Part shown: piece after piece, positions 2,993 through 60,132 of the stretch
Position numbering within the stretch: the stretch's first letter is position 1
Layout of the letters: each line of letters begins with the position of its first letter
Source of the DNA: Phormidesmis priestleyi Ana
GTDB taxonomy: Bacteria > Cyanobacteriota > Cyanobacteriia > Phormidesmidales > Phormidesmidaceae
Direction of reading: 5' to 3'
DNA: 64,000 nt
Assembly (NCBI GenBank): GCA_001314865.1
Contig: LJZR01000001.1
Location: 62,001-126,000 of the forward strand
Program-made: the position numbers and the translations under genes
Notes under the pieces: generated by a model
Databases searched by the model: none
Told to the model about the DNA's origin: nothing
The model's input: the letters and a program-made list of their open reading frames with translations, nothing else

Positions 2993-3052
2993 TGAACAAC
3001 TAACACCTGAACAACTAACACCTGAACAACTAACACCTGAACAACTAACAAC
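2993..3052. repeat. Four-copy 15-bp tandem repeat (TGAACAACTAACACC)
   Basis: Exact head-to-tail copies at 2993-3007, 3008-3022 and 3023-3037, with a fourth copy at 3038-3052 differing only near its end. The near identity of the copies implies recent expansion by replication slippage. Confidence 0.9.
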
Positions 3053-8676: not shown

Positions 8677-10779
8677 ATGACAGCAGATTCGCGGCCAGCC
8701 AAAGAGACCCTACGCTTAGCCAAGCTCAAGGGCTACAACATTTTAGATACCTTGCCTGAGCTTGCCTACGACGACATTACAGTGCTAGCCGCCCACTTGT
8801 GTGAAATGCCGACCGCGCTGGTGAGCTTAGTGGATAGCGATCGCCAATGGTTTAAGTCGCGAGTAGGTTTAAGTGCCGCTGAAACGCCCCGCAAAGTTGC
8901 ATTTTGTGATCACACCATTCAACACTCAGACATCCTCATTGTTGAAGATGCCACCCAAGATCCTCGCTTTTCGCACAATCCCCTAGTTACCGGAGACCCC
9001 TACATTCGCTTCTATGCAGGCGCGCCGCTGCTCACTCCCGATGGCTATGCGTTGGGTTCGCTCTGTGTCATTGACTATCAACCACGGCGTTTAACCCAGC
9101 ATCAGCAGCAGGGCCTTCTGATCCTGAGCCGACAGGTAGTGGCCCAAATGGAGCTGCGCTTGCATGCCCAACAGCTAAAACTAGCCAACAACCATTTAGA
9201 GCGACGGGTGAGTGAACGTACCGCCCGGCTGACCTCAGCGCTTAGTCGCTTACTCAAGGCGCAAAACCAGCTGCTCAAGCGAGAGGCGGCACTACGCCAC
9301 AATTCATTACATGATCCGCTCACGGGCCTGCCCAACCGCAGCTATTTTTCACAGCGATTAGAGCAGGCTATTCAGCTTGCGAGCCGTCAGCCCAAGCATT
9401 TATACGCTGTCCTCTTTATTGATTTGGACAACTTCAAACCGGTCAATGACACACTCGGCCATGATATGGGGGATGAATTGCTGCGCTTAGTGGCCAGCCA
9501 AATCAAGCAACCACTGCGTAAGAGCGATTTGGTCGCGCGGCTTGGCGGCGACGAGTTTGCGGTCTTGCTAGACAATATTCCGAACGAAAAACACGCGATT
9601 GTTGTGGTTCAGCGGCTACAGGAGCAGCTCAAGCAGCCTTTTACCCTTGGTACGCAGCAGGTATCTATTGGCGCTAGCATCGGGATTACCTTTAGCCATC
9701 AGGGCTATAGTCAGCCAGAGGCCGCTATCAGAGATGCCGATGTGGCGATGTATCAAGCTAAAAAACGAGCCAAAAAACAGGCTCAAAATCGGCTGCGATC
9801 GCAGCTCAACCCGATCAAGCAGCCGTCTACTCAGCCCTCTTCTGACGGGTCGGAAGCCTCTGATAAGGCTGATAAGGCGGCTAAGGCAGCTAAGGCGGCT
9901 AAGGCACCTATCCTGATTCAACCCGAGTCGTCTGTTACCGAGCAGCACTTTGTGGTGTTCAATGTAGACGCTCAGACTCAAAGCAAAAGCGAACAAGCGC
10001 TCAAAAATGAACTGCACCAAGCTGTTGTACAAGATCAGTTTCAGCTTTATTATCAGCCCATTTTCGATTTGACCCTAGGCTCGTCAGATCCCCGCCCAGC
10101 CCAACCCATCACCGGGTTTGAAGTGCTGTTGCGTTGGCAGCATCCCACGCGCGGCTGCCTCCGAGCCGAAAATTTCATTGAACTGGCTGAATCCATCGGC
10201 ATTGTACGCCAGCTGGGCAAAAAAATAATTCACACCGCCTGCAAGCAAATCAAACAATGGCGATCGCGCCACCACTGTCAAAATTTATCCCTTCACATCA
10301 ACCTGTCTCTCTCACAGCTGATGAGCCTAGAACTGCTCTCACAATGGGAGGCAGAACTAGCCCAGCATCAGCTACCGCCTTCGGCTTGTCAGCTAGAAAT
10401 TACAGAAAACTTGCTGCTCAGCAATAATCCAACCGTCATGACAACGCTCCAGGGAATTCAACAGCTAGGCATGGGGCTTTGTGTTGATAACTTTGGTCGG
10501 GGTCATACCTCTTTAAGTCGGCTCCATCAGCTCAATGTCAGCACGCTCAAAATAGATCGCACTTTTGTGAAAGAACTCACCCATTTAGAGGAAACAGATA
10601 TCGTCAAAACCATCCTTGACCTGGGGCGGAGCGCTGATATCACGGTCATTGCCAAAGGAATTGAAACGTCACAACAGCTAAAAACGCTGCTAGGGCTAGA
10701 CTGTCGTCTGGGGCAAGGGTTTTGGCTAGCTGAACCGATGGAGGCGATCGCGATCAACCCCATTTTGCTCGCCCGTTAA
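8677..10779 (+). CDS. GAF-GGDEF-EAL cyclic-di-GMP protein, probably cyclase-active with a degenerate EAL domain
   Basis: This 700-residue signalling protein has an N-terminal GAF sensor (about 20-165), a short coiled linker (165-210), a GGDEF domain (about 212-370), a low-complexity Lys/Ala linker and an EAL domain (about 445-695). The cyclase site is intact (GGDEF 290-294) and so is the product-inhibition site RxxD (281-284), so it should make c-di-GMP and be feedback-inhibited. In the EAL domain, E482, N542, E577, K625 and Q680 are present, but the DDFG motif reads DNFG (604-607) and the AEG-x-E motif reads AKGIE with Lys at 660. Both changes fall on residues used for metal binding or catalysis, so phosphodiesterase activity is probably lost or weak and the domain may bind c-di-GMP instead. 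The GAF input signal is unknown. Confidence 0.9.
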   Translation: MTADSRPAKETLRLAKLKGYNILDTLPELAYDDITVLAAHLCEMPTALVSLVDSDRQWFKSRVGLSAAETPRKVAFCDHTIQHSDILIVEDATQDPRFSHNPLVTGDPYIRFYAGAPLLTPDGYALGSLCVIDYQPRRLTQHQQQGLLILSRQVVAQMELRLHAQQLKLANNHLERRVSERTARLTSALSRLLKAQNQLLKREAALRHNSLHDPLTGLPNRSYFSQRLEQAIQLASRQPKHLYAVLFIDLDNFKPVNDTLGHDMGDELLRLVASQIKQPLRKSDLVARLGGDEFAVLLDNIPNEKHAIVVVQRLQEQLKQPFTLGTQQVSIGASIGITFSHQGYSQPEAAIRDADVAMYQAKKRAKKQAQNRLRSQLNPIKQPSTQPSSDGSEASDKADKAAKAAKAAKAPILIQPESSVTEQHFVVFNVDAQTQSKSEQALKNELHQAVVQDQFQLYYQPIFDLTLGSSDPRPAQPITGFEVLLRWQHPTRGCLRAENFIELAESIGIVRQLGKKIIHTACKQIKQWRSRHHCQNLSLHINLSLSQLMSLELLSQWEAELAQHQLPPSACQLEITENLLLSNNPTVMTTLQGIQQLGMGLCVDNFGRGHTSLSRLHQLNVSTLKIDRTFVKELTHLEETDIVKTILDLGRSADITVIAKGIETSQQLKTLLGLDCRLGQGFWLAEPMEAIAINPILLAR
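9853..9912 (+). repeat. In-frame coding repeat (GCTAAGGCG/GCAGCTAAG units) in the domain linker
   Basis: Imperfect 9-bp units encode the Lys-Ala-Ala run between the GGDEF and EAL domains, residues about 396-410. It lengthens a flexible linker without breaking the frame. Confidence 0.7.
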
Positions 10780-10791
10780 CTCACCCGTTAG
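10768..10791. repeat. 12-bp duplication carrying the stop codon of the GGDEF-EAL gene
   Basis: CTCGCCCGTTAA (ending in the plus-strand stop at 10777-10779) is followed directly by CTCACCCGTTAG. The period is a multiple of three, so a second stop lies in frame. The second copy also supplies the TAA stop of the convergent lnt gene at 10788-10790. Confidence 0.75.
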
Positions 10792-12515: not shown

Positions 12516-13859
12516 ATGGCAGACTGGCAGGTCATCGAAGGCGGCGTGAGCGCACCCAAAGGCTTTCGGGCAGCAGGCATTACCGCAGGACTCAAGCCTT
12601 CAGGCGCGCCAGATCTTGCCTTAATTTTTTCTGACTGTGATGCGATCGCCGCCGGCGTCTTCACCACTAGCCAGGTTCGCGCCGCTTGCGTTGACTACTG
12701 CCAAAATTTACTTGAAGAAAAGCCAGCCGCGCGTGCCATCCTGTGCAACGCAGGTCAGGCCAATGCCTGCACAGGTGAACAGGGCAATCAAGATGCGATC
12801 GCCAGCGCCGAATCTTTAGCCGCTGCACTTGGCATTTCTGCCAACGAAATCTTAACCGCCTCAACTGGCGTCATTGGCCAGCGGCTCAAAATAGATCTGC
12901 TCAAAGCAGGCATCCCGACCCTGGTTCAAGCGCTCTCACCCGAGGGTTCCGACCAGGCCGCTCGGGCGATTGTCACCACCGATTTAGTCACCAAATCAAT
13001 CGCGCTAGAAACTCAAATCGGCGATCGCCCCATCCGCATCGGCGGCATTGCCAAAGGATCGGGGATGATTCACCCCAACATGGCCACCATGCTGGCCTTT
13101 GTCACCTGCGATGCAGCCGTATCGCCTCAGCTCTGGCAAGACATGCTTCGCCGCGCCACCGAAAAAAGCTTCAACCAAATTACGGTCGATGGCGACACCA
13201 GCACCAACGATTGCCTAATTGCACTGGCCAATGGCGAATCACGCACGCCTGCAATCACCGCAGCTGGCCCCGAAGCCGACCGGCTAGAAGCAATGCTCAC
13301 CGCCGTGTGCGTTCACTTAGCCAAATCCATTGCACGCGACGGCGAAGGTGCAACCTGCTTAATAGAGGTCACAGTCACAGGGGCGATGAGCGATCGCGCC
13401 GCCAGCCAAATCGCTCGCACCATTGCCGGATCTTCCCTAGTAAAGTCCGCCATTTTTGGCCGCGATCCTAATTGGGGTCGGATTGCTGGCGCCGCCGGGC
13501 GCGCTGGCACGCCTTTCGACCAAAGTGATCTCTCTATTTCGCTAGGCAACTTCAATCTCATGAACAGCGGCACACCTCAACCCTTCGACAGAGCCGCAGC
13601 CAGCGCCTACCTCACCCAACAGTCCGAGCGCAGTACGCTTGCCATGTCCCAAATTTTGCTCACCAGCATCCAGCAAAGCAACGATTTACTAGTCGCCGAA
13701 ACCCTTCAACCCTTCAACCGACAGGCACTTGAGATAGAGTCTTTATCTCATCCTGTGCAAATTAACGTGAGTGTCGGCAATGGCCCCGGAACCGGAATGG
13801 CTTGGGGCTGCGACTTAAGCTACGACTACGTGAAGATCAACGCAGAATACACCACATAG
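12516..13859 (+). CDS. argJ: Bifunctional glutamate N-acetyltransferase/amino-acid acetyltransferase ArgJ
   Basis: This 447-residue precursor of the arginine pathway enzyme transfers acetyl from N-acetylornithine to glutamate and may also use acetyl-CoA. Family motifs are clear: GVFTTSQVRAACV, ILCNAGQANACTG, LTASTGVIGQ, and the self-cleavage site MATML, where Thr191 becomes the N-terminal nucleophile of the beta chain. The tail contains GNGPGTGMAWGCDLSYDYV, the usual C-terminus. ATG 12516 starts directly after an upstream tandem repeat. The stop TAG is followed by ACATAG, giving a second in-frame stop. Confidence 0.97.
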   Translation: MADWQVIEGGVSAPKGFRAAGITAGLKPSGAPDLALIFSDCDAIAAGVFTTSQVRAACVDYCQNLLEEKPAARAILCNAGQANACTGEQGNQDAIASAESLAAALGISANEILTASTGVIGQRLKIDLLKAGIPTLVQALSPEGSDQAARAIVTTDLVTKSIALETQIGDRPIRIGGIAKGSGMIHPNMATMLAFVTCDAAVSPQLWQDMLRRATEKSFNQITVDGDTSTNDCLIALANGESRTPAITAAGPEADRLEAMLTAVCVHLAKSIARDGEGATCLIEVTVTGAMSDRAASQIARTIAGSSLVKSAIFGRDPNWGRIAGAAGRAGTPFDQSDLSISLGNFNLMNSGTPQPFDRAAASAYLTQQSERSTLAMSQILLTSIQQSNDLLVAETLQPFNRQALEIESLSHPVQINVSVGNGPGTGMAWGCDLSYDYVKINAEYTT

Positions 13860-14484
13860 ACATAGCTTTCAAGAGCTAGCTTTCAAGAGCTAGTCTTCAA
13901 TACAGCCAAGCATTCCTGCCCCATGAAACTTTTTCAGCCACGTACTCGTCTACTAGACGGGTGCCTACTTTTAGCAAGGATTTAATTTACCAGGATTCAA
14001 TCCTAGTTAGAGCCAGCTATTTAGAGCTAGCCCCATTCAGCGCCGATTAAGAACCAAATTAAACGGGCTGATCATCCTCATCCATAAATGTTCCAATCAA
14101 ACCAATCACATCATGGAAAGTTTAGAATTTCGAGTGATGTATAAAATTACTCACATTATATCCGGAAATCGTAAGTATTTTTTCAGATAGCTAGGTATAA
14201 TTGCTAGCAAGCAAATATCAGTGATCACGTATTAGCGATACTAGCAATAGCAATTGAGTTAGTAGCATCAGGACATCGGGGTTAGTTTCACTGTTTTCTC
14301 TACATTCGCCTACTTACACACTTAGTTATGTATGAGCGCGATTTATGTTAAGTGCGATTCATGACTTCCTTACTTAGATTGATCTAGTAACTACAGGCAT
14401 TTTCAGTCAAATAATTCATCTCAAATAATTCATCTCAAGTAATTCAACAGTTTTGAAGACGCCAAGCCGGAGAGTCGAGAGTTC
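13860..14484. other. 625-bp intergenic region, AT-rich, no gene seen
   Basis: Holds a two-and-a-half-copy 14-bp direct repeat (AGCTTTCAAGAGCT at 13864-13877 and 13878-13891), small direct repeats near 14408-14445 (AATAATTCATCTCA), and the likely promoter and leader of the lipoprotein gene that begins at 14485. Six-frame reading shows only fragments without ribosome sites. No tRNA-like or riboswitch-like fold is apparent by eye. Confidence 0.5.
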
Positions 14485-19060: not shown

Positions 19061-19429
19061 ATCGCTGAGTCGCTTACCCTAACCGTTAGTCTAAGAGGCA
19101 CCCGCGAAGTTAGGGGGAAATGTCAAATATTTCGCCTCACTGGCCTTCTCGATGCCTTTTCTGAGCCAACCTTTTTAAAGGTCCTTAATAAATACATCGA
19201 AGATGGCCCAGCCCACATCATTTTAGATTTGTCTACGATTGACTTTGTAGATAGTTCTGGCTTAGGCGCGCTTGTTCGACTGGTGAAAAAAGCTAAAGGC
19301 GAGAGCGGTAGCCTTCAGGTTGTCAGTAATCCTCGCGTCACGCAAACGGTTAAGCTTGTTCGCCTCGAACAGTTCTTGTCTCTACAGCCAAGTGTGGACG
19401 CTGCTCTTGAGAATCTCAAAAAACTCTAG
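19061..19429 (+). CDS. STAS-domain anti-sigma factor antagonist, apparent ATC start
   Basis: A 122-residue single STAS domain like SpoIIAA: strand LRGTREVRGKCQIFRLTGLLDAF, then IILDLSTIDFVDSSGLGALV, where the Ser in DSSG is the usual phosphorylation site, then the helix with RVTQTVKLVRLEQFLSL. It should bind an anti-sigma kinase or a similar partner and be switched by Ser phosphorylation. Starting at the first conventional codon (TTG 19229) would delete nearly half of the fold, including the first strands and helix, so translation most likely starts at ATC 19061 behind AGGAGG. The alternatives are a sequencing error or a very rare start. The 3' end is duplicated: the last 15 bases including TAG recur directly downstream at 19430-19444. 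Confidence 0.85.
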   Translation: MAESLTLTVSLRGTREVRGKCQIFRLTGLLDAFSEPTFLKVLNKYIEDGPAHIILDLSTIDFVDSSGLGALVRLVKKAKGESGSLQVVSNPRVTQTVKLVRLEQFLSLQPSVDAALENLKKL

Positions 19430-19444
19430 TTCAAGAAACTCTAG
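19415..19444 (+). repeat. 15-bp duplication of the STAS gene's last codons and stop
   Basis: CTCAAAAAACTCTAG (19415-19429) and TTCAAGAAACTCTAG (19430-19444) differ at two positions. The second TAG is in frame with the first. Confidence 0.75.
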
Positions 19445-34200: not shown

Positions 34201-34793
34201 GGGGCATCGGCAACCTGCTAGGCGCACAGCAGTCGGGCCAAATGGAGGTAATCGGATTTGATCTCTATATGGATATGCTCGAAGAATCGATTGCCGAAAT
34301 TCGCGGTCAAGAAATTCCCCAGGTCGATGAAACGCAGGTTGATCTAAAAGTAACCGCCTTCATTCCGGCAGATTACATTCCCGATGTCGATCAAAAAATG
34401 AGTATCTACCGAACATTAGTGTCAGCAATCAACAAGCAAGAACTGATGGAAACGGTGGCCGATTTGAATGATCGCTATGGCAGCATTCCACCAGCCGTCG
34501 ATCAGCTCATCAAGGTACTAGAAATCAAACAAATGGCGAAGCCGCTGGGCTTTTCCCGTATTAAACCAGAAGGCAATCAGCATATCGTCATGGAAACACC
34601 CATGGAGAAGCCCGCTTGGAACCTACTACAAGAAAAGCTGCCGGAGCATTTGCGATCGCGATTTGTCTATTCCACCGGAAAAGTAACCATTCGCGGCCTA
34701 GGTGCCCTAAAACCCGACAAGCAAATTGAAAGCTTGATCGAATGGCTCGGACATATGCAAAGTGCGCTCAAAGAACCCGCTCTGGCTGCTTGA
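31260..34793 (+). CDS. mfd: Transcription-repair coupling factor Mfd
   Basis: This 1177-residue SF2 translocase removes stalled RNA polymerase and recruits UvrA. The UvrB-homology region (about 1-350) is followed by the RNAP-interaction domain with [17 protein letters not shown] (about residues 503-520), the motor with [10 protein letters not shown] near residue 657 and VVDEEQRFG near 754, RecG-like TRG motif region [10 protein letters not shown], and the C-terminal TRCF domain. All helicase motifs look intact. The start ATG 31260 follows AAGAGA. The stop codon lies within a 13-bp repeat (TCTGGCTGCTTGA, then TCTGGCTGCTTAA). Confidence 0.97.
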
Positions 34794-34826
34794 TCTGGCT
34801 GCTTAATTTTGGCTGCTTAATCTGGC
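34781..34826 (+). repeat. 13-bp repeat beginning in the last codons of mfd
   Basis: TCTGGCTGCTTGA (34781-34793, ending in the mfd stop) is repeated as TCTGGCTGCTTAA (34794-34806), then a degenerate third copy. The copies are out of frame with each other. Confidence 0.7.
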
Positions 34827-35190: not shown

Positions 35191-35340
35191 AACAATTCTC
35201 AATTCCTAAACTAATTTTAGTACTTAATTACCCTAGCTCTGCGCATTTAGTACAGCGACAATACCGCTGCCTTGATGCTGCCTCGATAGATCGTTGTTAA
35301 AACGTCACTATTTTAATAGCGCTGAACGAATAGCGCTGAA

Positions 35341-35398
35341 CTGTATTTCATAGAACTGTATTTCATAGAACTGTATTTCATAGAACTGTATTTCATAA
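35341..35398. repeat. 15-bp tandem repeat (CTGTATTTCATAGAA), almost four copies
   Basis: Perfect copies at 35341, 35356 and 35371, plus a partial fourth at 35386-35398. Exact identity implies very recent expansion. Confidence 0.9.
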
Positions 35399-35719: not shown

Positions 35720-36763
35720 GTGGCTTTATTTAATCGTTTATCCCTTTCCCGTGACATGGGTATCGACCTCGGTACAGCAAACACCCTGGTTTATGTCTCC
35801 GGTCGAGGGGTTGTTTTACAAGAGCCCTCTGTGGTCGCTATTGATGAGACTACCGGCAAACCGCTAGCGGTGGGTGAAGAAGCCAAGCAAATGCTTGGCC
35901 GTACGCCAGATAATATCCGCGCGGTGCGGCCTCTTAGAGACGGCGTCATCGCCGATTTTGATGTCGCTGAGGTGATGCTCAAGCACTTTATTCGCCGAGT
36001 GCATGAAAACAAAGCGCTAGTGTCTCCTAAGGTCGTCATTGGGATTCCTAGCGGTGTCACTGGCGTAGAACGCCGTGCGGTGATGGATGCGGCATTGCAG
36101 GCCGGGGCACGAATGGTTTATTTGATCGATGAGCCGGTAGCGGCTGCCATCGGCGCGGGCTTACCTGTAGATGAGCCCACTGGCAATATGATTGTGGACA
36201 TTGGTGGCGGAACTACTGAAGTTGCCGTGTTGAGCTTACAAGGCACGGTGCTGAGCGAATCTGTGCGAGTTGCCGGCGATGAGCTGACAGATTCTATTAA
36301 GCAGTACATGCGCAAAGTCAATAATTTAGAGATTGGCGATCGCACTGCCGAAGAAATTAAAGTCAAAATCAGCTCCGCTTATCCTAGCCCTGACGATGAT
36401 GAAATTTCGCTAGAAGTGCGTGGCGTTCACATGCTCTCGGGTCTGCCCAGAACAGTCACTGTCAAAAGCCCAGAAATTCGTGAGAGCATGGCCGAGCCGC
36501 TCTCTGTCATTGTAGAAGCCGTCAAGCGCACCTTAGAAAAAACGCCCCCTGAGCTCGCTGCCGATATCATTGATCGCGGCATTATGCTAGCCGGCGGTGG
36601 TGCGCTGCTCAAAGGGCTAGACACGCTGATTTCTCATGAGACCGGCATTGTCGTGCATGTCGCTGCCGATCCACTGAGCTGTGTGGTGCTAGGTACAGGC
36701 CGCGTGCTAGAGAATTTTGGCCAAATGGAGCGAGTGTTTAGTGCGCGATCGCGCGATCTGTAA
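35720..36763 (+). CDS. mreB: Rod-shape-determining actin homologue MreB
   Basis: This 347-residue bacterial actin forms membrane-associated filaments that organise lateral cell-wall synthesis. Visible elements: phosphate loop GIDLGTANTLVYV near the N-terminus, VIGIPSGVTGVERRAV, the second phosphate loop IVDIGGGTTEVAV, and adenosine-site AGGGALLKGLD. GTG 35720 is the start. It is the first gene of mreB-mreC-mreD, all in one direction; the gap to mreC is about 110 bp. The stop lies in a 7-bp repeat (CTGTAATCTGTAAT). Confidence 0.97.
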   Translation: MALFNRLSLSRDMGIDLGTANTLVYVSGRGVVLQEPSVVAIDETTGKPLAVGEEAKQMLGRTPDNIRAVRPLRDGVIADFDVAEVMLKHFIRRVHENKALVSPKVVIGIPSGVTGVERRAVMDAALQAGARMVYLIDEPVAAAIGAGLPVDEPTGNMIVDIGGGTTEVAVLSLQGTVLSESVRVAGDELTDSIKQYMRKVNNLEIGDRTAEEIKVKISSAYPSPDDDEISLEVRGVHMLSGLPRTVTVKSPEIRESMAEPLSVIVEAVKRTLEKTPPELAADIIDRGIMLAGGGALLKGLDTLISHETGIVVHVAADPLSCVVLGTGRVLENFGQMERVFSARSRDL

Positions 36764-36872
36764 TCTGTAATCAACAACTGCAACACAGCTTTAGCGGAAG
36801 ATAGCTTTAGCCTGTTATAAACAGTTGTTACCAACCGTTATAGACGCACTTGCTTTAAATACTCGACTCAAA

Positions 36873-38301: not shown

Positions 38302-38340
38302 ACTGAATATCTACACTGAATATCTACACTGAATATCTAA
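38302..38340. repeat. Three-copy 13-bp tandem repeat (ACTGAATATCTAC) after mreD
   Basis: Copies at 38302, 38315 and 38328. More degenerate CATCT-containing units continue to about 38417, reaching the stop of the convergent HAD gene. Confidence 0.85.
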
Positions 38341-39437: not shown

Positions 39438-40613
39438 CTACTGGCCAAATCCTTTGCCCCTAGCATCAGATTCCAGACAAAAGCACTTCTCTATTTGCTC
39501 TCGTAGCGTTGCCTCGTCTAGGTTTTGGCCAATCAACACCAGCTGATTTCTCTTGGGTCTACCGTTCCACTCTTCATCCTCCAGCGAGAATCGCTTGCCG
39601 CTTAGATGAAAAACATGACGCTTAGGGCTTTCCGCAAACCACAAAATACCTTTGGATCGAAAGACCGCAGCCGGTAGCTGATTATCTAGAAAGTGCTGAA
39701 ATTTCCGAATAGAGAGCGGCTGATCCCGATCAAAGGAAACAGAGGTAAATCCGTCTATATCTAAATGTGAATGGGCGCTATGGTCATGATCATGCTCACA
39801 GTGCCCATGATCGTGATCGCAACTAGAATGATCGGTATGGGGCTCATGACCTTCATGTCCATGACCTTCATGTCCATGACCTTCATGTCCATGGCCTTCA
39901 TGTCCATGGCCTTCATGTCCATGATCATCTGCGCTAACTGGCTTTTCTTGGTTAAAGTACTTGTCGGATTCAAATAGGCCCACGCTTAAAATCAGCGGTA
40001 AAGGCACCTTAGAGTGATCTGTCCGCAAAATGCGCGCATCTTGCTTGATATCGCGTAGTTTCACTTCTAACCGATCGGCATCGGCTTCATCTACAACGTC
40101 CATTTTGTTAAGCAAAATGATATCGCCATAGGCAATTTGGTTGTAGGCAGCCTGCGAGTTGAAAAGATCCAGACTGTAGTTTTCGGCATCTACGACCGTA
40201 ACGATAGAGTCTAATCGGGTCAAATCGCGTAGCTCGGTGCCTAAAAAGGTCAGTGCCACTGGCAGCGGGTCGGCAAGTCCTGTGGTCTCGACTACCAGGT
40301 AGTCAATTTTGTCTGAGCGCTCTAGTACTTTATAGACGGCTTCAAGTAAGTCGTTATTGATGGTACAGCAAATGCAGCCGTTGCTAAGCTCCACCATGTT
40401 GTCATCACCCGTTGTAATGAGGAGCTCATTATCAATACCGATTTCTCCAAATTCATTTACTAGCACCGCCGTTTTAAGACCTTCTTGATTGGTCAAGATA
40501 TGGTTTAGCAGCGTCGTTTTTCCGCTGCCTAAAAAGCCTGTGATGATAGTGACGGGCAAACCATGCTTGGAGGCATCCATTGACTGGGTTGGGGCGATTG
40601 TCGTAGCAGTCAT
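39438..40613 (-). CDS. CobW/COG0523-family GTPase with a long histidine-rich region, likely metal chaperone
   Basis: This 391-residue G3E GTPase has Walker A GFLGSGKTT (26-34), the metal-binding CxCC motif GCICC (79-83), LVVETTGLADP, guanine-recognition NKMD (169-172) and the C-terminal CobW domain with FRSKGILWFAESPKR. Residues 231-283 contain 21 histidines in repeated GHEGH units, then DHDHGHCEHDHDHSAHSH. COG0523 proteins deliver zinc or other metals to client enzymes, and the His run is a plausible metal-binding buffer. I see no Zur-like palindrome upstream. The gene is alone, divergent from cysS. Confidence 0.93.
   Translation of the reverse strand: MTATTIAPTQSMDASKHGLPVTIITGFLGSGKTTLLNHILTNQEGLKTAVLVNEFGEIGIDNELLITTGDDNMVELSNGCICCTINNDLLEAVYKVLERSDKIDYLVVETTGLADPLPVALTFLGTELRDLTRLDSIVTVVDAENYSLDLFNSQAAYNQIAYGDIILLNKMDVVDEADADRLEVKLRDIKQDARILRTDHSKVPLPLILSVGLFESDKYFNQEKPVSADDHGHEGHGHEGHGHEGHGHEGHGHEGHEPHTDHSSCDHDHGHCEHDHDHSAHSHLDIDGFTSVSFDRDQPLSIRKFQHFLDNQLPAAVFRSKGILWFAESPKRHVFHLSGKRFSLEDEEWNGRPKRNQLVLIGQNLDEATLREQIEKCFCLESDARGKGFGQ
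39843..39923 (-). repeat. 15-bp coding tandem repeat in the CobW-type gene
   Basis: TTCATGTCCATGACC-type units (about five copies, in frame) encode Gly-His-Glu-Gly-His on the minus strand. Confidence 0.9.
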
Positions 40614-40953: not shown

Positions 40954-42417
40954 ATGAGCGTCGTCATTTACAATACGCTATCCCGTCAAAAGGAAACGTT
41001 TGAACCCCTCTCACCCAATCAGGTGAAGATGTACTGCTGCGGCGTCACTGTGTATGACTACTGCCACCTAGGTCATGCCCGCTCTTACATCGTATGGGAT
41101 ACAGTACGCCGATATCTCACCTGGCGCGGCTATAACGTCCGCTACGTTCAAAACTTTACTGATATTGATGACAAAATTCTCACTCGTGCCCGCAAAGAAA
41201 AGTCCTCTATGGAGGCCGTGGCTAAAAAGTACACGGCGGCTTACTTAGAAGATATGGCACGACTGAATGTGCTAGAGGCTGATGAGTATACTTACGCGAC
41301 GCACACAATAGATGGGATCAAGCGCCTGATTCATGAGCTAGAGCAAAAGGGCTATGCCTATCCGGCTGAGGGCGACGTATATTATTCGGTGCGTAAGTTT
41401 GAGGGGTATGGCAAGTTATCGGGGCGCAAGCTTGAGGATATGCGGGCAGGAGAAAGTGGCCGCACAGAGACTCAGCAAACGCAGATCAAGCAAGATCCGT
41501 TTGACTTTGCGCTGTGGAAGTCGGCCAAGCTAGATGAGCCTGCTTGGGAGTCGCCTTGGGGGCCTGGCCGTCCGGGCTGGCATATTGAGTGTTCGGCAAT
41601 GGTGCGCGATCGCCTCGGCGACACTATCGATATCCATATGGGCGGTGCAGACCTTCAGTTTCCGCATCACGAAAACGAAATTGCTCAGTCTGAAGCAGTG
41701 ACTGGAGCGCCGCTGTCTACCTACTGGATGCATAACGGCATGGTGAACGTGGAGGGCACCAAAATGTCTAAATCTTTGGGCAACTTCACGACTATTCGTA
41801 ACCTGCTAGATGCACCCGATGGGCCTAACCCAATGGCGATTCGAATGTTTGTGATGCAGTCTCAGTACCGGATGCCTTTAGATTTTACGGAAAGTGCGAT
41901 CGCCGCTGCTAAAAAAGGTTGGGCTACCCTCAATGATGGACTGAACTTTGGTCAGCAGTATGGCAAAAACCTAGGCTGGAAGCTCAATGAAACCGATTTA
42001 GAGTTAGAGGCGGCAGCTGTCCAACAGTTTCAGGCATCAATGGATGATGATTTCAACACGCCAGGTGCCGTCGCTGTTCTCTTTGGTTTGGCTAAAGAAC
42101 TTCAGCGGCAAAGCAATCTGATTGTTCATCAAGGCAGCCCCGATGCTGACTTATGGACGCTTCAACAACATTGGCGAACCCTAGTTCAGCTAGCAGGCGT
42201 TTTAGGATTAGAAGCGCAAAATCAGGAAGAGTCCGCGACTGATTCTGATTCAACCAATGGGATTAGCGACGCTGAGATTGAGAAACTCGTTGAGGCGCGA
42301 TCGCTCGCAAAACAATCAAAAAACTATGCAGAGTCCGACCGCATCCGAGACGACCTCAAAGCCCAAGGCATCACCCTAATTGATAAGCCCGGAGGCGTTA
42401 CCGTTTGGCATCGTTAG
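40954..42417 (+). CDS. cysS: Cysteinyl-tRNA synthetase
   Basis: A 487-residue class I synthetase from ATG 40954 (the open frame extends nine codons upstream to another start). Signature elements: catalytic HLGHARS (38-44), the zinc-ligand Cys in [38 protein letters not shown] and KMSKSLGNF (about 270). It charges tRNA-Cys in translation. The last codons (TGGCATCGTTAG) lie within a short duplication that recurs downstream. Confidence 0.97.
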
Positions 42418-42470
42418 TCAGAGATCCTTCAATCAGGCATCGTTAGTCAGGCATCGTTCAATCAACATTC
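42407..42470 (+). repeat. 14-bp duplication of the cysS 3' end
   Basis: GGCATCGTTAGTCA, which contains the cysS stop, occurs at 42407-42420 and again at 42436-42449, followed by a variant GGCATCGTTCAATCA; the block between them (GAGATCCTTCAATCA) is a diverged copy. Confidence 0.75.
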
Positions 42471-42486: not shown

Positions 42487-42876
42487 ATGCTGGAATTTAT
42501 CAACCTTCCCAATGACAACCTTCCGCCCGTTGCGCCCTATTCTCATGCCGTCCGTGCGGGTGACTTCTTGTTTGTCACCGGTCAACTCGCGGAAGACCCG
42601 GACACAGGAGAGGTCCTAAACACCTCTATCGACGATCAAACCGAACGCGTGATGGCTAACCTGCGCCTTGTTTTAGACCACGCAGGCACTGGTTTTGATC
42701 GCGTAGTAATGGCTCGCATTTTCGTCACTGATTTTCGCTATTACGAAACAGTTAATCGTATTTATGCCAGCCACTTCACCGCAGGGCGATACCCCGGACG
42801 CACCACTGTAGGTGTAACCGCTCTAGCTGGCTTCGGCGATGTTGAGATCGATCTAATTGTGTACTGTGGTGATTGA
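42487..42876 (+). CDS. RidA-family reactive-intermediate deaminase
   Basis: This 129-residue trimeric YjgF/RidA protein hydrolyses reactive enamine/imine intermediates. It has VAPYSHAVRAGDFLFVTGQ near the N-terminus, the catalytic-Arg strand MARIFVTDFRYYETVN and the C-terminal GRTTVGVTALAGFGDVEIDLI. ATG 42487 is 69 bp after cysS and the two may share a transcript. The end of the gene is repeated: ATTGACAGA at 42872 (with the TGA stop) and again at 42885. Confidence 0.9.
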   Translation: MLEFINLPNDNLPPVAPYSHAVRAGDFLFVTGQLAEDPDTGEVLNTSIDDQTERVMANLRLVLDHAGTGFDRVVMARIFVTDFRYYETVNRIYASHFTAGRYPGRTTVGVTALAGFGDVEIDLIVYCGD

Positions 42877-42897
42877 CAGACGCAATTGACAGAATTA
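42872..42897 (+). repeat. 13-bp duplication over the RidA stop codon
   Basis: ATTGACAGACGCA (42872-42884) is followed by ATTGACAGAATTA (42885-42897). Confidence 0.6.
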
Positions 42898-43040: not shown

Positions 43041-43118
43041 GTTTCTATAGTCCTATTTCTATAGTCCTATTTTTATAGTCCCAAATCCTCCAGATCTTCC
43101 AAATCTTCTAGATCTTCA
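43041..43118 (-). repeat. Repeat spanning the rsgA stop: 14-bp non-coding units and 9-bp coding units
   Basis: On the minus strand GGACTATAAAAATA (with the stop TAA), then GGACTATAGAAATA and GGACTATAGAAAC follow downstream. Just upstream inside the gene, 9-bp units GAAGATCTG/GAGGATTTG encode Glu-Asp-Leu repeats. Confidence 0.8.
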
Positions 43119-58878: not shown

Positions 58879-60132
58879 TTAGAAAGCAGACGGTGGATCG
58901 GTTTGTTGAGTTTGCTGAACGAGCGATCGCGCGACATCAGTGGGATTGTCAGCCTGCATAAGTGCCCTCACAACGGCGACTCGGGTAGCCCCAGCCGCGA
59001 GAGTCGGCGCGATATTGTCGGCATTAAGCCCGCCGATGGTAAACCAGGGCATCGTGGCATGTTGCGCAGCATATTGCACATATTCGTTGCCAGAAGCGGC
59101 CTTGCCAGGTTTGGTGGGGGTAGCATGAACGGGGCCGACACCGATGTAGTCGGCTTTTTCATCTAGCGCCCGCTTGAGCTCTGTGGGGTTGGTGGTCGAG
59201 CGCCCGATGAGCTTATCGGGGCCCAGAATCATTCGGGCAGCCTGCATGGGTAAGTCATGCTGACCTAGATGCACGCCATCGGCATCAGCGGCGAGAGCAA
59301 TATCCACCCGGTCGTTGACAATAAAAAGGGCATTGTATTGGTGGCAAAGCGATCGCACCTGCTGAGCCACCCTCAACCGCTCGTTGTCATCAGCCGTTTT
59401 TTCACGATATTGCACTATTGCAATGCCGCCTTTCAGCGCAGCTTCTATAATGCCGAGCCAGTCTGAAAAAGGGGTATTTGGGACAGGTGCAGTGACCAGA
59501 TAGGTACGGGCATATAGTAGTTGCTGATAGCGCCTTTGAAAGGCTGCGGTAGGCTGCATAGAGCGAGATTCCTTAAGGTTTAGAGCGTTTTGCTGGGTGT
59601 TTTGCTGGGTGTTTTGCTGGGCGTTTTGTTTAGCTAATAGCGGTTCAACAATTTGGCTGTCTAGGGTATAGAGCTGATAGCGCATTTGCTTACAGTCTGC
59701 CGCCATCTCTGCGCTATGAAGCTTGCCATATTCCTCTAAAACTCGCAGGGCTTCTTGAGTACGTGCAAAGTTAGCTTGGAGAACATGGGCTAGGCTGCTG
59801 CGGGCGGCCTCTTGCGGATGAGTGATAGCAGTACCCAAGTCGCCAGGCGTGTCGCGAGCCAGACGAATGGCTGGGGTATGCCAGTGAGCGATTTGCTGAC
59901 GGAGATGTTTGAACTGAGTCGTTGTGGCTTCGTCATTCAGCCCAAATCGGCACCATTCTTCAATGGTTCTAATCCCTTCTCTGGCCCTATCTAAGTTGGC
60001 ATCAAGGATACGAAAGAGGGCATCAGAAGTCTGTGTATCTACGGAGTCGGCGGGCGAGTCGGCGGGCGAGTCGGCGGGCGATTGATCAGCGTTGGGGGAT
60101 GTTTTATGGCAGGTGTCCATATCAATAGTCAT
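58879..60132 (-). CDS. thiE: Thiamine-phosphate synthase with N-terminal ThiD2-like domain
   Basis: This 417-residue protein (from ATG 60132; another ATG at 60120) has an N-terminal helical domain (about 40-150, LDRAREGIRTIEEWCRFGL) of the type attached to cyanobacterial ThiE, a Gln/Asn repeat linker, and a C-terminal TIM barrel with VQYREK, LFIVNDRVDIALA, GVHLGQHDLP and GPVHATPTKPGKA. The barrel joins hydroxymethylpyrimidine diphosphate and thiazole phosphate. Two in-frame 12-bp repeats add SPAD units near the N-terminus and NTQQ units in the linker. The frame extends upstream through a GT-repeat tract that is probably untranslated leader. No TPP riboswitch motif is seen. Confidence 0.93.
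   Translation of the reverse strand: MTIDMDTCHKTSPNADQSPADSPADSPADSVDTQTSDALFRILDANLDRAREGIRTIEEWCRFGLNDEATTTQFKHLRQQIAHWHTPAIRLARDTPGDLGTAITHPQEAARSSLAHVLQANFARTQEALRVLEEYGKLHSAEMAADCKQMRYQLYTLDSQIVEPLLAKQNAQQNTQQNTQQNALNLKESRSMQPTAAFQRRYQQLLYARTYLVTAPVPNTPFSDWLGIIEAALKGGIAIVQYREKTADDNERLRVAQQVRSLCHQYNALFIVNDRVDIALAADADGVHLGQHDLPMQAARMILGPDKLIGRSTTNPTELKRALDEKADYIGVGPVHATPTKPGKAASGNEYVQYAAQHATMPWFTIGGLNADNIAPTLAAGATRVAVVRALMQADNPTDVARSLVQQTQQTDPPSAF
59585..59628 (-). repeat. 12-bp coding tandem repeat in the thiE linker
   Basis: TTTTGCTGGGTG-type units (about four) encode the Asn-Thr-Gln-Gln run of the linker. Confidence 0.8.
60044..60082 (-). repeat. 12-bp coding tandem repeat near the thiE N-terminus
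   Basis: GAGTCGGCGGGC units, three copies, encode Ser-Pro-Ala-Asp. Confidence 0.85.

Follow-up and report, generated by a model that had tools for sequence, protein, structure and literature searches.

Short tandem duplications at gene ends of Phormidesmis priestleyi Ana belong to a lineage-specific mutational process, probably from misrepaired topoisomerase I cleavage

Stop codons in the Ana genome often look as if they had been duplicated, the last codons of a gene and its stop being followed at once by a second copy. These gene-end repeats are one local outcome of a process that is specific to the lineage and probably originates from misrepaired cleavage by topoisomerase I (TopA). The process makes tandem duplications of about 9-18 bp, with a mode of 11-15 bp, and acts throughout the genome. 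It needs no microhomology, is filtered by reading frame inside genes, is restricted by lineage and leaves a cytosine four bases outside the duplicated unit. From this boundary base and an Escherichia coli precedent we infer TopA as the cutter, a step of extension and resealing, and a responsible TopA allele or paralogue.

Repeats in the window

The window is the whole 64-kb stretch of DNA that was analysed. The preliminary description had named repeats at eight gene ends; on re-reading the sequence all eight are present as described, and the gene names GGDEF-EAL, Lnt, ArgJ, Mfd, MreB, CysS, RidA and RsgA are upheld by Pfam (Table 1). At mfd the period of 13 is as reported, but the array is longer than the two copies claimed. 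The single duplication at the GGDEF-EAL stop supplies the stops of two convergent genes. The 15-bp array at 39845-39923 encodes GHGHE-like pentapeptides, and a congener protein has a related His-rich stretch; the stretch is perhaps metal-binding and was perhaps grown by the same duplication process.

Table 1. Tandem duplications and arrays in the window, with the evidence for each
Feature	Positions	Strand	Evidence
GGDEF-EAL stop: 12-mer, two imperfect copies, the second holding the convergent lnt stop	10768-10791		sequence, Pfam
argJ stop: two copies of ACATAG, followed by an array of period 14 at 13863-13900	13854-13900	+	sequence, Pfam ArgJ
STAS-like ORF stop (19427-19429): imperfect period-15 duplication	19416-19444	+	sequence; STAS label from the preliminary description
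Convergent gene pair mfd/ssb, between the stops: array of period 13 with about 3.5 copies	34781-34826		sequence, Pfam TRCF and SSB
mreB stop: period-7 duplication	36756-36772	+	sequence, Pfam MreB_Mbl
cysS stop: period-29 duplication with an internal 14-mer	42407-42464	+	sequence, Pfam tRNA-synt_1e
RidA stop: period-13 duplication, 9 bp exact	42872-42893	+	sequence, Pfam Ribonuc_L-PSP
rsgA stop: period-14 array, about 3 copies	43042-43081	-	sequence, Pfam RsgA_GTPase
Intergenic period-15 array of the same kind away from gene ends, 3.9 exact copies	2993-3050		sequence
Intergenic period-15 array, 4.0 exact copies	35338-35397		sequence
Intergenic period-13 array, 2.9 exact copies	38302-38339		sequence
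Intragenic 15-bp array encoding a His-rich pentapeptide repeat that a congener has in part	39845-39923	-	sequence
12-bp array within the ThiD2/TMP-synthase ORF	59587-59628	-	sequence, Pfam
Second 12-bp array within the ThiD2/TMP-synthase ORF	60044-60081	-	sequence

Stop codons and other positions

Are the repeats a feature of stop codons, or of the DNA around them? A sample of 0.70 Mb gave 505 called genes and 500 stops for examination, 305 of them followed by 100 bp or more of intergenic DNA. A stop was counted when the left copy of a direct repeat (score at least 8) covered it, and the dinucleotide-shuffled downstream 100 bp served as control. That repeats span stops, as first described, is borne out, and they do so far above chance: 63/305 stops (20.7%) are covered, against 14/1525 after shuffling, and at a score of at least 14 the figures are 33/305 and 0/1525. 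The idea that stops are singled out is largely refuted by the comparison with other positions. True stops do exceed stop-like trimers at least 30 bp from gene ends (401/2760, 14.5%) and coding positions -30 to -300 (2-4%), but positions +15, +30, +45 and +60 past the stop are covered at least as often (75/305, 75/305, 74/281 and 59/253, or 23-26%), and position +90 is still covered in 34/221 cases. The enrichment thus concerns noncoding DNA, with its peak directly 3' of genes, rather than the stop codon itself.

Stops and starts were also compared in a larger sample of 1.79 Mb, where 83/807 stops followed by 60 bp or more of intergenic DNA lie under the left copy of a direct repeat of 9-20 bp (score at least 10), and 14/985 starts lie under either copy. 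Repeats cover 18-19% of the DNA at +10 to +40 past a stop; the share drops to 6-9% at distances above 100 bp, and in the last 10 bp before a start it is 2.6%. On the position controls and the coverage profile a stop-specific origin was rejected. The 3' bias is real, but no hot spot is needed to account for it: tolerance at 3' ends can do so, if events close to starts and promoters are purged.

Could the ends of transcripts nevertheless be a hot spot for the same duplications, added to this tolerance? We regard this as unlikely. It would agree with the interior coverage of intergenic regions of 80-300 bp, which is 17.8% in convergent (75), 14.4% in co-directional (320) and 9.6% in divergent ones (81). 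However, divergent regions contain promoters, where events should be purged, and missed genes sit in long gaps: the gene caller was a simple one that overlooked the STAS ORF and probably further genes, which remain in the gaps. Nor does the boundary cytosine show a strand bias relative to transcription, being found on the sense strand in 33/83 and on the antisense strand in 32/83 cases in co-directional intergenic DNA, and in 13/36 and 16/36 within genes. With this balance, dependence on the transcribed strand was dropped.

Size, frame and abundance

The Ana draft genome measures 5.93 Mb, of which 1.79 Mb (about 30%) was sampled, non-randomly. Low-complexity repeats (periods 1-4), lower-scoring overlapping repeats and open reading frames shorter than 60 amino acids or cut by the ends of a piece were removed before counting. 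In this sample 1444 repeats have a period of 9-20 (867 intergenic, 427 coding and 150 mixed), which would scale to four to five thousand in the genome if the non-random sample is taken as typical. In noncoding DNA, periods 12, 13, 14, 15 and 16 occur 102, 91, 121, 90 and 44 times. The coding counts stay within the same envelope at multiples of three (30, 107, 97 and 17 at periods 9, 12, 15 and 18), as opposed to three each at periods 13 and 14. The coding spectrum is the noncoding one minus most out-of-frame lengths, which argues for one genome-wide mutational process filtered by selection, and the frame filter argues against an assembly artefact. A mutational process, one of the origins first considered, is thereby upheld, but as a genome-wide one and not one acting at transcript ends.

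Counting exact tandem copies sharpens the size class. Across 896 intergenic regions, units of 11, 12, 13, 14, 15, 16 and 17 bp were found 56, 66, 78, 75, 66, 21 and 10 times; the expectation for each is 0 (mean of three shuffles, none of which gave a copy of at least 11 bp). Taken without a score threshold and for units of 4 bp and longer, the excess of exact copies extends from 6 to 17 bp with its plateau or mode at 11-15 bp, units of 4-5 bp being at chance level. Period 7 is rare, with 5 noncoding repeats (score at least 10) against the 121 of period 14, and among the eight gene-end sites it is seen at mreB alone. Certain coding repeats belong to protein repeat types that are already known (pentapeptide-like, in the L031 and L038 genes), and the 15-bp class therefore has other causes in part.

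Relatives

How far does the process extend beyond this strain? Per 100 kb, Tandem Repeats Finder (TRF) reports 73 arrays of period 10-18 for Ana and 24 for its congeners, as against 7.8 for samples from outside the genus, 9.5 for the other named cyanobacteria and 6 for E. coli (50 kb). By noncoding 9-18 bp repeats per kb, the Ana genome (2.75) stands with its congeners G004 (2.98), G005 (1.92) and G001 (1.29); G002 and G003 have 0.61 each, G006 has 0.14 and genomes outside the genus have 0.23-0.71, all rough values from 40-100 kb per relative or group. The process is strong in several congeners and weak in others and in the other cyanobacteria sampled. Two gene losses were considered against this pattern and rejected. 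The RNase HI gene is present in 17/18 genomes (not in G005, which is 92% complete) and the 5' nuclease of Pol I in 18/18, and neither matches the density pattern.

Gain of copies is visible at individual loci, where events are read from existing copies rather than observed as fresh insertions. The mfd-ssb gap of Ana is 37 bp long and consists largely of copies of the 13-mer. Six congeners were inspected at this locus, with ssb judged by eye: the mfd stop lies 0-10 bp from the apparent end of ssb in G001, G002 and G005, the gap in G003 is longer and lacks the 13-mer repeat, and in G004 and G006 the end of ssb was not seen in the inspected stretch past mfd. Among in-frame coding duplications, 43/429 have an alignable relative in the loci covered. 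Every relative lacks at least one unit in 16 of these and some relatives do in 4; 7 are mixed, and 16 show no length difference (old or chance repeats).

Repeats of another kind were noticed at the mfd loci of Nostocales/Symploca type (L114-L124, L159), where period 7 dominates the noncoding repeats (35/81). This class has a fixed unit length and is distinct from the one of 11-15 bp.

Edges of the duplications

Do the duplications carry a mark of the enzyme that started them? Edges were aligned where the match spans a whole number of units and each unit has at most one mismatch (185/1362 of the Ana repeats of period 10-20). One position is clearly unusual, a C four bases outside the unit (-4). 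It was found at 75/198 edges in the discovery set (background.22), and again at 27/72 two-copy edges in held-out Ana DNA (background.21) and 18/40 in congener samples (background.24). With multi-copy events included, Ana DNA has it at 145/370 edges, against 22.6% expected from composition (p 1e-12), both in noncoding (113/288, p 2e-11) and in coding DNA (29/72, p.007), and the distinct congener events at 21/46 (p.0015). The C is present in each of the period classes 11-12, 13-14, 15-16 and 17-20, and weaker at 9-10 (40/132, p.06). The 4-mers that bear it are diverse (53 different ones starting with C). Passing 2833 simulated motif-free duplications through the same finder gave no C excess (0.221 vs 0.226), and none was seen at -4 in other cyanobacteria, which have TopA too (15/60 edges from 30 events). 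The boundary C is an enzyme-like mark, seen at about 39% of the clean edges of those 185 repeats. Weaker signals in the Ana repeats lie at -3 (T) and at +4 (G). At periods of 21-60 the Ana DNA yielded no event with clean edges. Outside the genus, the duplications of 9-20 bp show an uneven base at +4 (chi-square 12; about 30 events).

The edge motif is symmetric on average, and its first reading was staggered nicks on opposite strands, whose 5' overhangs, about 14 nt long, would be filled in and then joined; paired nicks in plants are reported to act in this way. Such nicks predict what the average shows, namely tandem duplications of defined length that need no microhomology and carry an outside motif with reverse-complement symmetry. 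They also predict that a single event has C outside both of its edges, but C outside left and C outside right are anti-correlated (OR.44, p.013; OR.51 in an earlier test), as is the inside pair (OR.29, p.004). Placing both cuts on one strand gives a log-likelihood of -460.7 (4 parameters), a better fit than independent cuts (-469.4, 2 parameters) or opposite-strand cuts, for which the staggered model gains nothing over independence (-469.4, 5 parameters). Same-strand pairing of C at both edges is significant in just one of two mirror tests (OR 3.1, p.0008; OR 1.4, p.32) and is partly confounded by residual periodicity, as C at -5 co-varies too. Ku was found in 0/18 genomes searched, which also speaks against staggered nicks, and Ku end joining was rejected on this count. 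After the strand tests staggered nicks were dropped, and we hold them to be rather improbable.

Another rival is a nick directed by a lesion, in nucleotide excision repair or otherwise. UvrABC makes its 3' incision at the fourth bond and leaves a patch of 12-13 nt, numbers that fit both the boundary and the unit length. The C lies outside the duplicated unit, however, and not inside an excised patch, and there is no clear dipyrimidine at -5/-4, which makes this origin quite improbable.

Polymerase slippage between short pre-existing repeats is the standard source of short tandem repeats and may drive the growth of arrays after the first duplication. Exact pairs exceed their period by 0 bases in 60 cases, by 1 in 22, by 2 in 8, by 3 in 5 and by 4-12 in 27, while in 86 the match falls short of it (worn edges or filler). 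The 27 pairs with long excess suit slippage, but the peak at 0 indicates joining that ignores sequence and requires no microhomology. Together with the sharp mode at 11-15 bp and the enzyme-like boundary base, this leaves slippage a very small chance of being the initiating step. Selection at gene ends for tandem or back-up stops or for 3' structure, another origin first considered, hardly deserves credence: coverage is maximal just 3' of stops and true stops exceed remote stop-like trimers, but periods divisible by three are rarer at stops than between genes where an excess was expected for back-up stops (21/83 vs 340/867, p = 0.013), the positions +15 to +60, which were not chosen for stops, are equally rich, and in-frame duplications occur inside genes too.

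Topoisomerase I as the candidate cutter

Misrepaired TopA cleavage, the origin we favour, connects the boundary base with published work. Topoisomerase I, like reverse gyrase, favours cleavage sites with a cytosine four nucleotides upstream (excerpt of PMC7587558), a preference that bacterial topoisomerase III does not have according to the excerpted part of PMC11999072. In E. coli, Bachar et al. (2019) described a topA R168C mutator that produces repeat-independent tandem duplications of 2-19 bp in galK. They identified neither a common motif nor known TopA cleavage sites in the duplication hot spots, and call the de novo origin of tandem repeats from non-repeating sequence unknown (PMC6954433). 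A check of the MG1655 TopA sequence places R168 next to R169, R173 and Y177, the residues that the review ties to the -4 cytosine (excerpt of PMC7587558). The match of the boundary C to this published preference, with the topA R168C precedent, makes TopA the likely cutter; the proposed identity of the enzyme would stand on that one base and that precedent.

How might a cut become a duplication? TopA, a type IA enzyme, would cut one strand 3' of CNNN and stay linked to the 5' end. Before resealing, repair synthesis may extend the free 3' end by 11-15 nt and displace the TopA-capped flap. The capped flap would escape a flap nuclease that depends on a free 5' end. TopA could then rejoin the extended 3' end, preferably where CNNN is again terminal, the next replication would fix the loop as a tandem duplication, and later rounds might turn some duplications into arrays. 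Selection then acts on the events: those that are not multiples of three are lost in genes, and those at gene starts and promoters would be purged and those 3' of stops kept. A duplication that starts inside a gene end keeps the stop of the first copy intact and is tolerated, which produces the look of a duplicated stop.

Which gene could be responsible? In the Ana genome two genes of TopA type, at G000:C45:118589-120469 and 132405-134084, pass the cut-off of the topA_bact model; their open frames measure 991 and 794 amino acids. More than one TopA match is found in five of the six congeners (in G004 as fragments) and in some genomes outside the genus. Copy number and density are not cleanly related, and any link is suggestive at best: genomes with a single match (G003, G007, G008, G009) have 0.23-0.61 duplications per kb and those with more than one (G000, which is Ana, G001, G002, G004, G005, G006 and G012) 0.14-2.98, G006 having two genes at 0.14/kb and G003 one at 0.61/kb. 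In G004 the TopA matches are split across fragments, and the one at G004:C44:1158-2450 has an in-frame TGA; this may be assembly noise (the genome is rated 7% contaminated) or a broken paralogue. A bolder and tentative proposal is that a topoisomerase I prone to duplication, perhaps the second and shorter of the TopA paralogues, acts in this natural lineage as a long-standing, size-specific insertion mutator that rewrites intergenic DNA and adds repeats of four or five residues to proteins, and that natural de novo tandem repeats could be events of TopA cutting, extension and resealing.

Comparison with known systems

One mutational process together with selection explains the duplicated-looking stops, the repeat-filled intergenic DNA and the short in-frame protein repeats. 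Because the natural events are many, their size is sharp and the boundary base resembles that of topoisomerase I, the de novo origin of tandem repeats becomes directly testable. Among the matches listed in a search of open-access papers without preprints, no natural genome with such a signature was found, which is weak evidence of absence.

Cyanobacteria have short intergenic tandem repeats of another type, the heptamer repeats known as STRR. The TAACTGA arrays of Beggiatoaceae and cyanobacteria use one fixed 7-bp unit (excerpt of PMC4679880), whereas in Ana each site has its own unit, of period 11-15. Topoisomerase-initiated de novo duplications are described for Top2 in yeast and TOP2A K743N in tumours; in the excerpted account these are of 2-4 bp, arise from a type II staggered cut and need end joining (PMC11477040), in contrast to the 11-15 bp, the one-strand signature and the lack of Ku in the 18 genomes searched here. 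Paired nicks in plants give de novo tandem duplications as well (Schiml et al. 2016, as cited in the excerpt of PMC6954433). The edge statistics of Ana favour one strand. The plant duplications, by contrast, reportedly need nicks on both. The closest likeness is to E. coli topA R168C, where an altered topoisomerase I makes short head-to-tail duplications independent of existing repeats (excerpt of PMC6954433). That system is a laboratory mutant in which no cleavage motif was identified, while Ana, from a different phylum, offers many natural events, a C at -4 and a causal gene that is for now a candidate.
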